Assembly (NCBI RefSeq): GCF_004214795.1
Contig: NZ_CP035928.1
Span: 124,001 to 188,000, forward strand
Direction of reading: 5' to 3'
DNA: 64,000 nucleotides
Source: Malaciobacter pacificus
Lineage (GTDB): Bacteria; Campylobacterota; Campylobacteria; Campylobacterales; Arcobacteraceae
Position 1 is the first letter of the stretch. The number at the start of each line of letters is the position of its first letter. The translations under genes were made by a program, and so were the position numbers. A model generated the notes under the pieces. The model ran no database searches and was not told where the DNA came from. It saw nothing but the letters and a program-made list of their open reading frames with translations. Shown here in pieces: positions 37,805 through 44,646 of this stretch.

Positions 37805-39542
37805 TTTATTTAAAATAAGTATAAGAATATTTCTTGTACTTATTTTATTTCCTACTTTTACTTTTGCTTATTATCATAGTGTTATAAACCCAAAAAAACT
37901 AAATGTATCTTATGGCTTTGAAAAGGGAAACTATAAGATTCATTTAAAAGAAACTAATTATCTATCATTTAAAAGTGCTACGGGATTTTCCTTTTATCTT
38001 CCAAGTTATGTTACAGATTTTAGAATAGAGTTTTTAAGAAGTAGTTCTAAAGGATTAATTTATGGGGCATTGGGAAGAAGTAGAAATGTTGATTTCACAA
38101 ATGTAATAAAACCATCACTTGATAATTTAGATTATTTTCAAACTAATCCAAAAGATAATAAAAAACAGTTAAACCATCTAAATAATGGTCAAAAAATCTA
38201 CTATGATGCTAGGACATCTTTAGTTTTTGAAGCTAATAATTTAAGTTCAAATAGATACTTAAATCGAAGCTATTTTTTTACTTTTGATAAAACAAAAGAT
38301 GCTAAGGCTTTAAAAAATCTTGCATATTCATACTATTTAATTTTAGATAAATCAAAAGTTGATAGTTATGTAAAAAGAAATTTTCAAATACTAGATTATG
38401 AAAAAAAAGAGTTTCAATTACTTCACACATATTTAAACAATCTATTAAATAAGAGAAATATTAAGAAAGAAAGTATTAAAAAAGAGAAAAAAGTTGCTGT
38501 TATAAAAACAAAACCTAAAAAGGTAGTTCCTGCTAAAAAACAAATATATTTAAATCGAACAAAAATTGTTTTTATGAAAGAGTTTGAATATAAAAAATTT
38601 CAGTTTAAAATAAATAATGACACATCAAAAATAGAAATTAAAAAACAGCTAGATGAACTTTATAAAAAAATTACTCACCTTAAAAATGCCCATGAAAAAA
38701 GAGTTTTAAATATCAATTATGAAAAAGACTTTAGAGTTTTAAATGCGATTGAGAGTCTAAAAGAGGAGTTGATTTTAGTATCAAGATTATTAGAAGATTT
38801 TAATTTTGTTGATTCAAGAATTGATTATACTTTAAATTATGATTTATATAAAAAAATCTATGAATCAATAGGTGTTCATAAATCTAATATAGACTCTTTA
38901 TTAAGCTTTTTACCCAAAGAAAAACTAGTTACTTATAACCAAAGTGATTTAAATCTTATTGACTATAATTTCACAAAAAATAGTTTGGAAAATATAATAA
39001 AACTTGTTGAAACTACTAAAGAAGAAAATAGTGATTTTTCTATGAATTGTTATAATAATTTAGAAAAATTTAATGAAAAATGTATGAATTATAAAGGCTA
39101 TTATGATAACTTTATTCAAAGTAATATAAATAATCTTAAAATACCTAAAAAAGAGTTTTTATTAAAATATTCTGATTCTAAAATATTAAATAATATTGCA
39201 GTTTACTATTATAAAAATTTAGATTTAGAATTGTCTGAGTTTTATTTATTAGAAGCTTTAAAAAAAGCAAAAACTGAATCTGTAAAAGAGCTGATAAATT
39301 TTAATATGGGTATCTTAAATTTATTTATAAATAGTGATAAATCAAAAATATTAGCTGTTAAATATTTTGAAAAAACAAAATTAAAAGAGGCTTACTATAA
39401 TTTAGGGATTAGTTATTATAATGGTTTTGGAGTAAGAGAAAATGATAAAAAAGCATTTAATTACTTTAAAAAAGCAAGTGATATGAATTTAAATATTGCA
39501 AAAGAAAACTATGAAAAAATGCTAAAAATGGGTTTTAAATAG
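37785..39542 (+). CDS. Exported Sel1-repeat protein
   Basis: The 585-residue protein starts at TTG 37785 (TTG at 37791 is also possible). It has a signal peptide (ISIRIFLVLILFPTFTFA), a beta-rich N-terminal region to about residue 120 that faintly resembles MalM-type periplasmic proteins, a Lys-rich linker (about 225-250), a long helical region, and Sel1/TPR-like repeats at about 540-585 (YYNLGISYYNGFGVRENDKK). Sel1 repeats mediate protein contacts. It is coupled to the lipoprotein gene and its last 8 bp overlap the convergent kinase gene. The function is unknown. Confidence 0.7.
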   Translation: MLLNQNNLFKISIRIFLVLILFPTFTFAYYHSVINPKKLNVSYGFEKGNYKIHLKETNYLSFKSATGFSFYLPSYVTDFRIEFLRSSSKGLIYGALGRSRNVDFTNVIKPSLDNLDYFQTNPKDNKKQLNHLNNGQKIYYDARTSLVFEANNLSSNRYLNRSYFFTFDKTKDAKALKNLAYSYYLILDKSKVDSYVKRNFQILDYEKKEFQLLHTYLNNLLNKRNIKKESIKKEKKVAVIKTKPKKVVPAKKQIYLNRTKIVFMKEFEYKKFQFKINNDTSKIEIKKQLDELYKKITHLKNAHEKRVLNINYEKDFRVLNAIESLKEELILVSRLLEDFNFVDSRIDYTLNYDLYKKIYESIGVHKSNIDSLLSFLPKEKLVTYNQSDLNLIDYNFTKNSLENIIKLVETTKEENSDFSMNCYNNLEKFNEKCMNYKGYYDNFIQSNINNLKIPKKEFLLKYSDSKILNNIAVYYYKNLDLELSEFYLLEALKKAKTESVKELINFNMGILNLFINSDKSKILAVKYFEKTKLKEAYYNLGISYYNGFGVRENDKKAFNYFKKASDMNLNIAKENYEKMLKMGFK

Positions 39543-42066
39543 GTATTTCAAGTGTGAATTTTGCTCCATATAACTGTTTGTTTTCAAATGTAAATGACTC
39601 ATTGGTAGCTTCTATAGATCCTTTTAAATGGTTTTCTATAAGCTGCTTAGTCATATATAAACCTATTCCAGTACCTTTATATTGATGTTTTGTTGTAAAG
39701 TATGGTTCAAAGATTTTGTCTAGAATCTCTTTTTTTATACCATTAGCACTATCTATAATCTCAATTACTAAATTATCTTTGTCTTTAAATACATTTATTA
39801 ATATATATTTATCTTTTTCTTTTAAGAGTAAAGCATCTTTTGCATTTATAAGTATGTTCATTATAGATTGAATTAGTTCATTTTCTAAACTTATGATTTC
39901 CAAGTTTTTATCTATGTTTTTAATAAAAACTATGTTGTAATTAATGATTTTAGATCCAAGTAAATCAATACATTTATTTATCATATTATGTATATTAATT
40001 GATTTTTTTTCTTTATTTTCATTAAAATATGTTCTAAAATCATCAATTGTATCACTTAAATATTGAGTTGAGTTTTTAATATGTAAAATAGCCTCTTTAA
40101 ACTCTTCATCACTTAGGGTATTTAGTTCTTTTTTTAACTCTAGTCCAGATGCTGCAACTGATATTACAGATAAAGGTTGTCTCCATTGATGTGCAATATT
40201 TTCTAACATTTCACCCATAGAAGCCATTCTAGATTGTTTAATTAGTATTTTATTTTTTTCTTCATTTTTCTGTATTTCTAATGCAACTTTCTTGTTTAGC
40301 TCATTATTTAATCTTTTTAATAAATACTGTCTATAAAAAAGAAAAGATAAAAAAGAAAAGATTATTAATATATATAAAATCCTATAATCAAACTCTTTAT
40401 TAAAGTTTACAGAGATCCATTTATTTAATATTTTCTGTAATTCATTATCATTTATTGAGTCTATAGCTTTAGAAAAAATTGAATTTAACAATGGTTCATC
40501 ATTTCTTGTTCCAATTCCTAAATTCCAAGTATCATTTAGTTTTGCTGTAATTTTAAGTTGCCCTATATAATCTTTTTGTATATGAAAACCAACTGTTGCT
40601 ATTGTCCCAATAAATCCAAATGCATTACCGTTTAAAACTTTTTCTAAGCCTTCAGTAATATTTTCAACTTCAATAAAATTAATAGTTGGATATTTTATTT
40701 TAAGGATTTCTCCATATGCATAACCTTTTACTATAGCTAGTCTTTTATCTTTTACTTGCTCTAATTTATCAATAAAGGGTTGATTAATATCTGTTGCTAT
40801 AACTAAGGGTATGTGCAAATAAGGTTTTGTAAAATCAAGGTATTTCTCTCTTTTAGGCGTAGACATAACTAATGAAAAAGCATCACACTCTCTATTTTGA
40901 CCAAGTTTTAGACTTTCACTCCAGCTTTTAGTAACGATAGGTTCAATTGGAATAGCAAGCTTTTTTTCTAAAAGTTTAAAATAATCAGCAGTGATTCCAA
41001 TATGTTTACCTTTTTTAAAACTTTCAAAAGGCATCCACATTGGATCAATACAAAGTTTGATTTTCTTTTTTTGTTTTAAATATATTAATTCAGAGTTTGT
41101 TAGATTTAAATTATTTAAATGATTAGAATATACTAGTTCATTAAATTTTATATCTTTATCTAGTAAACCCATAACTTTATAAGTATTAATAATTAAATTA
41201 ATCCTTTCAGGAGTAATTGTTCCTATTCTTCCTTTTTCATCATAAACTAATTTTTTCATTTCATTAGCTTCAAAAATTAAGCTTTCTAAACTTTTATTTT
41301 GTGGATTATATTTTTCATAAATTAATTTTGCAACTTCATTTATATTATTAAATGCATATTCCCAGCCTTTAATAGTTGCTTGATAAAAATCAGAAACTAA
41401 TTTAGGATCTTTATTAACAAGCTCACTTCTTGTGAAAATTAATTCTTCATAGAAGTCAAACCCATAATCTTTAGGATTAAAGATTTTTGTTTTATAGCCT
41501 TTTTCTTTTAATAAAAAAGGTTCATTTGTAGTATAAGCTAACATCAAATCAGTTTTTTTATTGATTAAATCATTTACATCAAAGCTATGAGGAAGTATAT
41601 TTATATCATCTAACCCAACACCTTTGCTTGTGAGCATAGATTGTAAAGTAGCAAATCGTTCCTGCTCTTTTGTAATCATTAATTTTTTATTTTTAAAATC
41701 TTGAATGTAATTTATATTTGCGTTTTCAAGAGCTATTAAAACCAAAGGAGAAGATTGAAAAATTGAGCCAAGGATTACAATATCTTTCCCATTAGCTTTT
41801 TCTATAAGTAATGAAGTTGAGTTTGTACCAAAATCAGCATTGCCATTTAGTACCTCATTAGTTACTATTGTATCTGAAGTGAATTTTTTTAGTTCTACTT
41901 CTAGATTAAAATCTTTATAGAAACCTTTTTCCTTTGCAACATAAAATCCTGCAAATTCAAATTGGTCAAGCCACATTAATTGTACAGAGGTTTTCCTAAT
42001 TTCAGAAGAATGTACAAAGGATATAAAAACAATTAATAAGAGAAGTTTAGTAATATAATTTTTTAT
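39535..42066 (-). CDS. Sensor histidine kinase with two periplasmic binding domains
   Basis: The 843-residue protein (with the start below) has a signal peptide, an NMT1/ThiY-type binding domain (about 27-265, VQLMWLDQFEFAGFYVAKEK), a second, family 3 binding domain (about 325-545, KLCIDPMWMPFESFKKG), one membrane helix (560-580), HisKA with H626 in AHQWRQPL, and an HATPase domain (NILINAKDAL, GTGIGLYM). The first ATG at 41976 would cut off the signal peptide and the first strand. Upstream the frame is open, and an ATA at 42066 lies 6 bp after AAGGA, giving KNYITKLLLLIVFISFVHSS. I chose that start. No response regulator is adjacent. Confidence 0.85.
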   Translation of the reverse strand: MKNYITKLLLLIVFISFVHSSEIRKTSVQLMWLDQFEFAGFYVAKEKGFYKDFNLEVELKKFTSDTIVTNEVLNGNADFGTNSTSLLIEKANGKDIVILGSIFQSSPLVLIALENANINYIQDFKNKKLMITKEQERFATLQSMLTSKGVGLDDINILPHSFDVNDLINKKTDLMLAYTTNEPFLLKEKGYKTKIFNPKDYGFDFYEELIFTRSELVNKDPKLVSDFYQATIKGWEYAFNNINEVAKLIYEKYNPQNKSLESLIFEANEMKKLVYDEKGRIGTITPERINLIINTYKVMGLLDKDIKFNELVYSNHLNNLNLTNSELIYLKQKKKIKLCIDPMWMPFESFKKGKHIGITADYFKLLEKKLAIPIEPIVTKSWSESLKLGQNRECDAFSLVMSTPKREKYLDFTKPYLHIPLVIATDINQPFIDKLEQVKDKRLAIVKGYAYGEILKIKYPTINFIEVENITEGLEKVLNGNAFGFIGTIATVGFHIQKDYIGQLKITAKLNDTWNLGIGTRNDEPLLNSIFSKAIDSINDNELQKILNKWISVNFNKEFDYRILYILIIFSFLSFLFYRQYLLKRLNNELNKKVALEIQKNEEKNKILIKQSRMASMGEMLENIAHQWRQPLSVISVAASGLELKKELNTLSDEEFKEAILHIKNSTQYLSDTIDDFRTYFNENKEKKSINIHNMINKCIDLLGSKIINYNIVFIKNIDKNLEIISLENELIQSIMNILINAKDALLLKEKDKYILINVFKDKDNLVIEIIDSANGIKKEILDKIFEPYFTTKHQYKGTGIGLYMTKQLIENHLKGSIEATNESFTFENKQLYGAKFTLEIPI

Positions 42067-42190: not shown

Positions 42191-42685
42191 ATGTCTAAAG
42201 AAAAAACATTAAAAAAAAAGATTTTAGATTATATTTATACAACATCGAAACAACCAATACTTTTAAAAGATTTACTTGTTGCAAATAGGCAGTATAATGA
42301 AGGTATGCATGTAGAACCTGCAAGACTTGGATTTAGATTAAAGTTAGGAAGAGCATATTTAGTTTATATTCTTTTAGTTTTATCTGTATTAGTTCCTATC
42401 TCATTATTAACTCATAAGCCTTTAGCTATTATTGACCCTCATATTTCTATATTAGGTGCGATGATTATAACTGCAATTATATTTATAGGGTTTAATTTTT
42501 TTAGGTCATACATGAGAGATTCAATTACTAAAGAATTGATTAAAAAATCATGGATATTACATTTTCCGTATTTTTCTTACGAAGAGTATTCAAAAAAAAT
42601 TGATGAAATCTTTGAAAATGCTATGAAAGATGAAATAAATAAAAGAGATTTAGAAAGATATATTTTAGATAATTTATCTAAATAG
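42191..42685 (+). CDS. Small membrane protein of unknown function
   Basis: The 164-residue protein has a charged cytoplasmic N-terminus of about 50 residues, two membrane helices (about 54-72 and 85-105) and a charged C-terminal tail of about 55 residues, YSKKIDEIFENAMKDEI among them. No family is recognised. A -10 candidate TAAAAT lies at 42155 and AGGA precedes the ATG. It is transcribed alone and ends in a hairpin that reaches into the convergent Kunitz gene. Confidence 0.7.
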   Translation: MSKEKTLKKKILDYIYTTSKQPILLKDLLVANRQYNEGMHVEPARLGFRLKLGRAYLVYILLVLSVLVPISLLTHKPLAIIDPHISILGAMIITAIIFIGFNFFRSYMRDSITKELIKKSWILHFPYFSYEEYSKKIDEIFENAMKDEINKRDLERYILDNLSK

Positions 42686-42704
42686 AGTTGTTATTCACAA
42701 CTCT
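42684..42704 (+). terminator. Terminator inside the end of the Kunitz gene
   Basis: An 8-bp stem AGAGTTGT/ACAACTCT with a 5-base loop and a T-run starting at the stem end. It covers the stop codons of both convergent genes, so its 3' arm is also coding for the last residues of the Kunitz protein. Confidence 0.7.
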
Positions 42705-42930
42705 TTTTACACTCTTTCATGGTTTGAAATGGGATATTACCTCCACATCCTCCCCAAATAAAAGTTTTACAAGTTCCACTATTAAAATCAAAATAATATT
42801 TATTAATCATAGCTTTACATTTTCCTGTTTTTGGTTGAGAGTAACACTTTGAATCAAGTTTTTTATTGCTAGTTGAACATCCAGTTAATGCAAATATAAA
42901 AATTAAAGTAAGTAAAAAAAGTTTAATCAT
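42691..42930 (-). CDS. Kunitz/BPTI-type protease inhibitor lipoprotein
   Basis: The 79-residue protein has a lipoprotein signal with LTGC (Cys18), a 10-residue linker and one Kunitz domain (29-78). Its six cysteines are C29, C38, C54, C62, C74 and C78, with gaps 9, 16, 8, 12 and 4; BPTI has 9, 16, 8, 13 and 4. The residue after C38, the P1 position, is K39, as in trypsin-type inhibitors. YYFDFNSGTCKTFIWGGCGG is the Kunitz signature. Kunitz domains are common in animals and uncommon in bacteria. It overlaps the preceding gene by ATGA. The target protease is unknown. Confidence 0.9.
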   Translation of the reverse strand: MIKLFLLTLIFIFALTGCSTSNKKLDSKCYSQPKTGKCKAMINKYYFDFNSGTCKTFIWGGCGGNIPFQTMKECKKSCE

Positions 42931-43685
42931 TTAAAATCCTTATCATAAATAGCTTTTATAGAAGTATTTCTAAGTTTCTTTAAATCCATATCAATATATT
43001 TGCCAATGATATCTTGCCTTTGTTTAAAAGCTAATGTAATTTTTCTTTTTGCTGGTCTATGTTCATATATAAAATAGCCAGCTTCATTCATGCTAAGTCT
43101 AACAGGTGAAGCGATAGAATATGTACTCATAACACAGTTTTCATGTGAGATATTATATAAATCATCAAAATATTCCTTTGTCCATAACTCCATATTTACA
43201 TCACTTGAAAAGGCATCTTGATATATGATGTTAAAAAAATCATTAGGAAATGATTTTATATAATTTCTTGCATCACCAATATTTATTTCTATTTTAATAT
43301 TTTCATCTTCATATTTATTTGTTGTTGCAACACTTTTTATAATATGCTTTATCTCTTCAAACTCTTTTGGGAATTTAAAAGTTTCAAGTGATTTTACAAG
43401 TTCCCCATCAAGTTCAGGAGAGTAGATATTCACTTTTATATTTATATTATTTTGTAAAATATAAAATAAAGTTGTAAAAGTATTGTATCCTATACCAAAA
43501 CAAATATCTAAGATATTTAATTCTTTTTTACCTTTATGAAAATCTAAAGTTGGAATAATATGTTTTGTAAGTGATTCTTGAATTGCTCCATCATCTGGAT
43601 TGTGATAGTGTTGATTGTACTTTTGCGAAAATAGAGTGTTTGAACCATCTTTTGTGGCAACTATACTGTTTATATTATCTTGCAT
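42927..43685 (-). CDS. mnmD: MnmD-type tRNA methyltransferase
   Basis: The 252-residue protein matches the N-terminal methyltransferase half of MnmC, which methylates the aminomethyl group at the wobble uridine of tRNAs; the oxidase half is absent, so it is MnmD-like. Signs are HYHNPDDGAIQESL at the start, the SAM loop LDICFGIGYNTFTTL, and YQDAFSSDVNMELWTKEYF. It overlaps the Kunitz gene by ATGA and follows the next gene on its 5' side directly. Confidence 0.85.
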   Translation of the reverse strand: MQDNINSIVATKDGSNTLFSQKYNQHYHNPDDGAIQESLTKHIIPTLDFHKGKKELNILDICFGIGYNTFTTLFYILQNNINIKVNIYSPELDGELVKSLETFKFPKEFEEIKHIIKSVATTNKYEDENIKIEINIGDARNYIKSFPNDFFNIIYQDAFSSDVNMELWTKEYFDDLYNISHENCVMSTYSIASPVRLSMNEAGYFIYEHRPAKRKITLAFKQRQDIIGKYIDMDLKKLRNTSIKAIYDKDFK

Positions 43686-44130: not shown

Positions 44131-44646
44131 TTAGTTACCTAGTGATTTTAGTTTTTCTTCACTTAAAAATAACTCTTCATTTGACATAACTCCAATATCT
44201 GAATCTAAAATATCTTGTGCAATTTCTTTTGCTTCTTCAAGTGAGTGCATAGCACATGTTCCACATTGATAGATATTTAATTCTGGGATATCTTCTTGTT
44301 TTTCTACATTTAAAACATCTTGCATAGATGCTCTCCATGCTTTTCCTACTTCTTGCTCACTTGGACTTCCAAGTAAACTCATATAAAAACCAGTTCTACA
44401 CCCCATAGGTGAAACATCAATGATTTCAACTTTGTCAGAGTTTAAATGATTTCTAATAAATCCAGCAAAAAGGTGTTCTAAAGTGTGAATACCTTTTTCC
44501 CCTAACATTTTTTCATTTGGTACACAAAATCTTAAATCAAAAACTGTGATAATGTCCCCTGATGGTGATTTCATAGTTTTTGCAACTCTAACTGCAGGTG
44601 CAGGCATGATAGTATGATCAACTCTAAAACTGTCTAATAATGGCAT
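44131..44646 (-). CDS. luxS: S-ribosylhomocysteine lyase LuxS
   Basis: LuxS splits S-ribosylhomocysteine into homocysteine and the AI-2 precursor. The metal ligands H54 and H58 (HTLEH) and C128 (QCGTCAMHS) and catalytic C83 (MGCRTGFY) are all present. The 171-residue length is normal. It completes the activated methyl cycle together with MetH; the first gene of that cycle, pfs, is not in the window. Confidence 0.97.

Follow-up and report, generated by a model that had tools for sequence, protein, structure and literature searches.

Kunitz inhibitors have been studied almost wholly in animals, and the question raised by a short gene on the reverse strand of a 64,000-nucleotide stretch of the Malaciobacter pacificus genome (the window; Table 1) is what such a domain is doing in a bacterial lipoprotein. 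The gene starts with ATG, and its product has one cysteine at position 18, at the end of the lipobox LTGC (residues 15-18), and six more at positions 29, 38, 54, 62, 74, and 78, within the domain. The domain cysteines are spaced 9-16-8-12-4, which differs from the 9-16-8-13-4 of BPTI by one residue fewer between the fourth and fifth. K39, immediately after the second domain cysteine, is the P1 residue, and A40 is P1'. The open reading frame, the six cysteines with their spacing, and the placement of K39 at P1 had all been part of an original prediction made from the sequence alone, and each is borne out by our reading of the ORF. The same prediction had Cys18 as the membrane anchor, and this is supported by an alignment in which the lipobox cysteine is kept in 13 of 13 short Kunitz homologues. 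A Ser after the lipobox Cys is compatible with outer-membrane sorting in E. coli. By its lipobox the window protein is a bacterial lipoprotein, with lipidation and an outer-membrane location predicted.

Table 1. Features of the Kunitz lipoprotein gene and its surroundings, in window coordinates.
Feature	Position	Strand	Basis
Convergent neighbour, 164-aa membrane protein, site marker	42191..42685	+	In 101/104 family genomes	
Kunitz lipoprotein gene, 79 aa + stop	42691..42930	-	ORF; Pfam PF00014 E 1.1e-13
Kunitz domain, residues 29-78, six cysteines	42697..42846	-	Pfam residues 29-79; fold match to BPTI 6pti
Reactive-site loop core, Cys38-Lys39(P1)-Ala40(P1')	42811..42819	-	Alignment of 18 six-Cys bacterial homologues
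Linker, residues 19-28, variable	42847..42876	-	Length differs across alignments; low pLDDT where mature protein begins
Cys18, predicted lipid-anchor residue and mature N-terminus, followed by Ser	42877..42879	-	Invariant in 13/13 short homologues
Signal peptide, residues 1-17, lipobox LTG at its end	42880..42930	-	Read from sequence; 13 homologues align in lipobox and hydrophobic N-terminus
Possible Shine-Dalgarno AAGGA, 5' of ATG	42937..42941	-	Sequence reading
Upstream gene, MnmC2-like methyltransferase	42927..43685	-	Pfam PF05430; NCBIfam MnmC2 under its cut-off
luxS (S-ribosylhomocysteine lyase), in conserved neighbourhood	44131..44646	-	NCBIfam 313.5 bits; cluster table

Pfam places residues 29-79 in the Kunitz_BPTI family (PF00014) with a score of 51.5 bits, well over the cut-off of 21 (E 1.1e-13); this is the only Pfam family matched by the protein, and the protein is the only match to PF00014 in the 2.66-Mb genome. 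When the PDB was searched with phmmer, 117 distinct sequences were returned at E <= 0.001, the best of them being SmCI, boophilin, and TFPI. The Pfam score and the PDB matches argue that the cysteine pattern did not arise by chance, and sequence comparison confirms that the window protein carries a Kunitz/BPTI domain (PF00014, MEROPS I2). No NCBIfam model covers the Kunitz domain, and the protein has no match to the ecotin family (PF03974). NCBIfam matches to TraV and other lipoproteins were discarded: all are weak, with scores far under the cut-offs, and begin in the signal peptide.

The predicted structure agrees with this assignment. Supplied with an alignment of 17 bacterial domains, AlphaFold2 returned a top model with a mean pLDDT of 84.1 (49-61 for the other four of five), and a Foldseek search with this model retrieved only Kunitz domains among the matches listed. 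Alignment to BPTI (6pti) and APPI (1aap) using VIA-align gave a Z of 8.5 and an rmsd of 1.7 over 55 residues. The comparison with BPTI that the original prediction had proposed therefore yields a predicted Kunitz fold that matches it although, as AlphaFold2 was trained on BPTI-like structures, the model confirms compatibility and is not independent proof of the fold. Three disulfides are predicted for the domain from its cysteines, and the presence of a DsbB homologue in the genome makes periplasmic disulfide formation plausible.

How widely is the domain found among bacteria? In an even sample of the Campylobacterota, 6 of 397 genomes encode one. Within the window's own family, the Arcobacteraceae, it is present in 10 of 104 genomes, distributed over 5 of 20 genera; a second Campylobacterota family (f7) has it in 12 of 151 genomes, and a third (f4, n=175) provided one clear case and one weak partial match (G702). 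Patescibacteria was the one phylum sampled beyond the Campylobacterota, and in a sample centred on a Patescibacteria genome the domain was found in 4 of 380 genomes, with 2 strong matches and a weak one in G967. A contig search with one query sequence reached a single relative, L013, also from the Patescibacteria, whose genomic neighbours are ordinary bacterial genes. The original prediction had set the gene against a mainly animal family; the survey of Campylobacterota that it suggested instead uncovered a bacterial clade, so the window gene is not an isolated animal-like gene. At this frequency in the Arcobacteraceae the gene is accessory, and hence dispensable in most habitats.

Several of these relatives differ in their architecture. 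The Patescibacteria proteins with Kunitz domains are L071, L072, and L013, two of which have a probable membrane-spanning N-terminus. L072 is a lipoprotein in which a cysteine-rich stretch lies ahead of a weak Kunitz match; a Kazal-like stretch picked out in it by eye was without Pfam support. In L002, L003, and L027, from two Campylobacterota families, a six-cysteine Kunitz domain is fused to a C-terminal domain that includes the sequence KPAIYLYP; neither Pfam nor NCBIfam gave a match to this C-terminal domain in L002 and L003.

The reactive loop is well preserved in the 18 bacterial copies with all six cysteines, a set drawn from three Campylobacterota families, that of the window among them, and from two Patescibacteria. 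P1 is Lys in 12/18 and Arg in 6/18, P1' is Ala or Gly in every copy, and the glycine two residues before the loop cysteine is invariant. The original prediction had staked its reading on conservation of the loop around K39, which is what we observe in all 18. The bacterial copies also share a signature: all have one residue fewer between cysteines 4 and 5 than the 13 animal domains, and they have [VI]PF where the compared animal domains have xNNF, xNRF, or similar, with the exception of L011, which has VAF and a second missing residue. Because it is common to the bacterial relatives, the 12-for-13 spacing is not noise. The domain had been called canonical, a description that holds for its six cysteines and trypsin-type P1 but not for the one-residue deletion or for the Pro that replaces an animal Asn or Arg; these differences from BPTI, which follow Cys38, could alter stability or target range.

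In a tree built from 51 aligned columns with the 13 animal domains (the letters of the BPTI and APPI domains were entered by hand, all other sequences being taken from database output), a branch supported at 99/92 sets the animal domains apart (97/94 in a first run). The bacterial copies are thus separate from the animal ones in the comparison that had been proposed, and the Arcobacteraceae copies group together at 95/89. This topology fits a bacterial group that arose once, but the 51 columns do not give the direction of any transfer between animals and bacteria. Pairwise dN/dS values for the six-cysteine copies range from 0.07 to 0.34, with several dS values near saturation, and are below 1 in every pair with a finite estimate. 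The gene family is under purifying selection.

The chromosomal site is informative about the age of the gene. In the window, the stop codon of the methyltransferase gene shares bases with the Kunitz start codon (ATGA), so a single message probably serves for translation of both; in other genomes the Kunitz gene faces different genes, and the pairing is therefore not functional evidence. On its other side is the gene for the 164-aa membrane protein (no Pfam or NCBIfam match), which it adjoins in 9 of the 10 Arcobacteraceae genomes that carry it. Genera g1, g10, g11, and g13 have the gene at this site, and the tenth copy (g74, L019) is located elsewhere. In many genomes lacking the Kunitz gene the site is empty, with the 164-aa gene and the MnmC2-like gene adjacent and only a short gap between them. 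The location of nine copies at one site, beside a nearly universal gene, points to an old arrival. An old transfer had been proposed because the base composition resembles that of the neighbours, and both this resemblance (GC3 of 0.139, neighbours 0.13-0.20) and the common site across four genera support it.

When presence of the Kunitz gene is placed on the tree of the neighbour protein, at least 5 changes are needed on the best tree and 4 if only well-supported branches are counted; this is compatible with an old presence that was lost several times and equally with recurrent gain through recombination at a single site. Presence varies for further genes at the site as well, among them glutamate-cysteine ligase-like, gamma-glutamyltranspeptidase, and formylglutamate amidohydrolase-like genes. 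There was no match for the Kunitz protein in plasmids and phages (tblastn), and hence no sign of a mobile carrier; viral contigs searched with the window protein, a relative, and a DNA motif also gave no match. At 39535-41976 the window encodes a sensor kinase with NMT1/THI5-like and SBP_bac_3 substrate-binding domains ahead of the histidine kinase, and relatives of it that are differently built lie near the same place in other genomes.

What, then, might the protein do? We consider it likely, judging from sequence, that it is an outer-membrane-anchored, trypsin-type Kunitz inhibitor (BPTI, MEROPS I2) of foreign proteases. K39 and A40 are trypsin-type residues, and protease inhibition would be the expected activity. 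Once exported and lipidated on Cys18, the protein would be held at the envelope by its short flexible linker, and trypsin-like (S1A) serine proteases would be blocked by the standard mechanism, their active site being entered by the loop that carries Lys39 at P1. Candidate targets are digestive proteases, whether from an animal host, from a grazing protist, or from a bacterial predator. In this it would fill the role that ecotin has in other bacteria; no ecotin (PF03974) was detected in the 104 genomes of the family, that of the window included. The genome has one PF00089 match, which has a GNSGGAL motif and, by inspection, a DegP/HtrA-like C-terminal half. With no ecotin, and with HtrA/DegP as the only trypsin-family protease, the target is probably foreign.

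A refinement compatible with foreign-protease inhibition is that the defence is directed at predatory bacteria or protists, with microbial S1 proteases as the target, and not at animal hosts. The patchy presence of the domain in several Campylobacterota families and the Patescibacteria, as opposed to one lineage, speaks for this possibility, which we put forward tentatively.

A Kunitz fold need not inhibit: in animals, Kunitz toxins and the Kunitz domains of collagen VI have non-inhibitory roles. A bacterial example may exist in family f7, where a short Kunitz gene lies after recR. In some f7 genomes this site encodes a short six-cysteine lipoprotein (L075, L076, L077), and in others a lipoprotein of ~155 aa in which a Kunitz scaffold is accompanied by an additional domain at the N-terminus (L030-L036). 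The latter have lost both loop cysteines (Cys14 and Cys38), have Asp, Glu, Thr, or Lys at P1, retain a lipobox where the N-terminus is complete, and form one group in the tree (100/99); a model of a recR-linked derivative still matches Kunitz folds. The simplest reading is that these are orthologues in which an inhibitor was converted to another use, and the loss of the reactive loop with retention of scaffold and lipobox indicates that the scaffold can serve another purpose. L078 and L079, at this recR-linked site too, are likewise Kunitz-scaffold lipoproteins without the loop cysteines and conserved P1, and, as in L030-L036, the added N-terminal domain is a beta domain. Could the window protein, too, have kept the fold in order to bind a surface ligand or a channel, or to serve in adhesion or as a structural lipoprotein? 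The L030-L036 group lends this some weight, but in the window's clade the type of residue never changes at P1, at P1', or at the loop glycine, as expected of a working inhibitor loop, and we think such a use unlikely. That the lipoprotein instead regulates the cell's own HtrA/DegP, which is the only trypsin-family protease in the genome and would share the envelope with it, seems very improbable, since Campylobacter ecotins inhibit trypsin but leave HtrA and DegP uninhibited (PMC7773321) and since the absence of the Kunitz gene from most relatives would leave their HtrA unregulated.

The occurrence of Kunitz domains in bacteria was mentioned in passing in a 2012 paper (PMC3426482) and is recognised by Pfam. 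Our search of the open-licence literature turned up no work on Kunitz proteins of the Campylobacterota, nor any description of the present lipoprotein group, of its signature, or of its site, and the group, signature, and conserved site are apparently undescribed. A bacterial clade with a conserved trypsin-type loop, a lipid anchor, and its own signature suggests an ecotin-like defence in bacteria without ecotin and raises the question of which way the domain moved between animals and bacteria; its intact, loop-less, and fused members form a natural series in which re-use of an inhibitor scaffold can be followed. Inhibition by the window protein, which is small and readily made, can be clearly tested. 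More speculatively, and with slightly less confidence than we attach to microbial predators as the target, a separate, old bacterial branch marked by the [VI]PF deletion may have moved between Campylobacterota and Patescibacteria as a general shield against predators' trypsin-like proteases, one lineage being converted in place to a non-inhibitory lipoprotein through loss of the loop disulfide.

Foreign-protease inhibition, our preferred reading, can be set against known systems. With BPTI/aprotinin, APPI, TFPI, SmCI, and boophilin (MEROPS I2, PF00014) the window protein shares the six-cysteine pattern and the predicted fold, and its Lys P1 and Ala P1' are as in the trypsin-type members, which have Lys or Arg followed by Ala or Gly; it differs from them in its bacterial lipid anchor, and from animal domains in lacking one residue of the stretch that runs from Cys38 to Cys51 and in having [VI]PF in place of the xNNF-like motifs. 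Conkunitzin-S1 typifies two-disulfide Kunitz domains without the Cys14-Cys38 pair, which is also missing from L030-L036; domains of this type are animal neurotoxins, whereas the window protein itself keeps six cysteines. The likeness to ecotin (MEROPS I11, PF03974) lies only in the proposed role, that of an envelope inhibitor of foreign trypsin-like proteases, as ecotin is a separate family with a fold unrelated to the Kunitz fold. Omp19 of Brucella is a lipoprotein. Related to MEROPS I38, it resides in the outer membrane and inhibits proteases (PMC12620975) and, while its inhibitor family differs from that of the window protein, it is a precedent for a protease inhibitor at the bacterial outer membrane.
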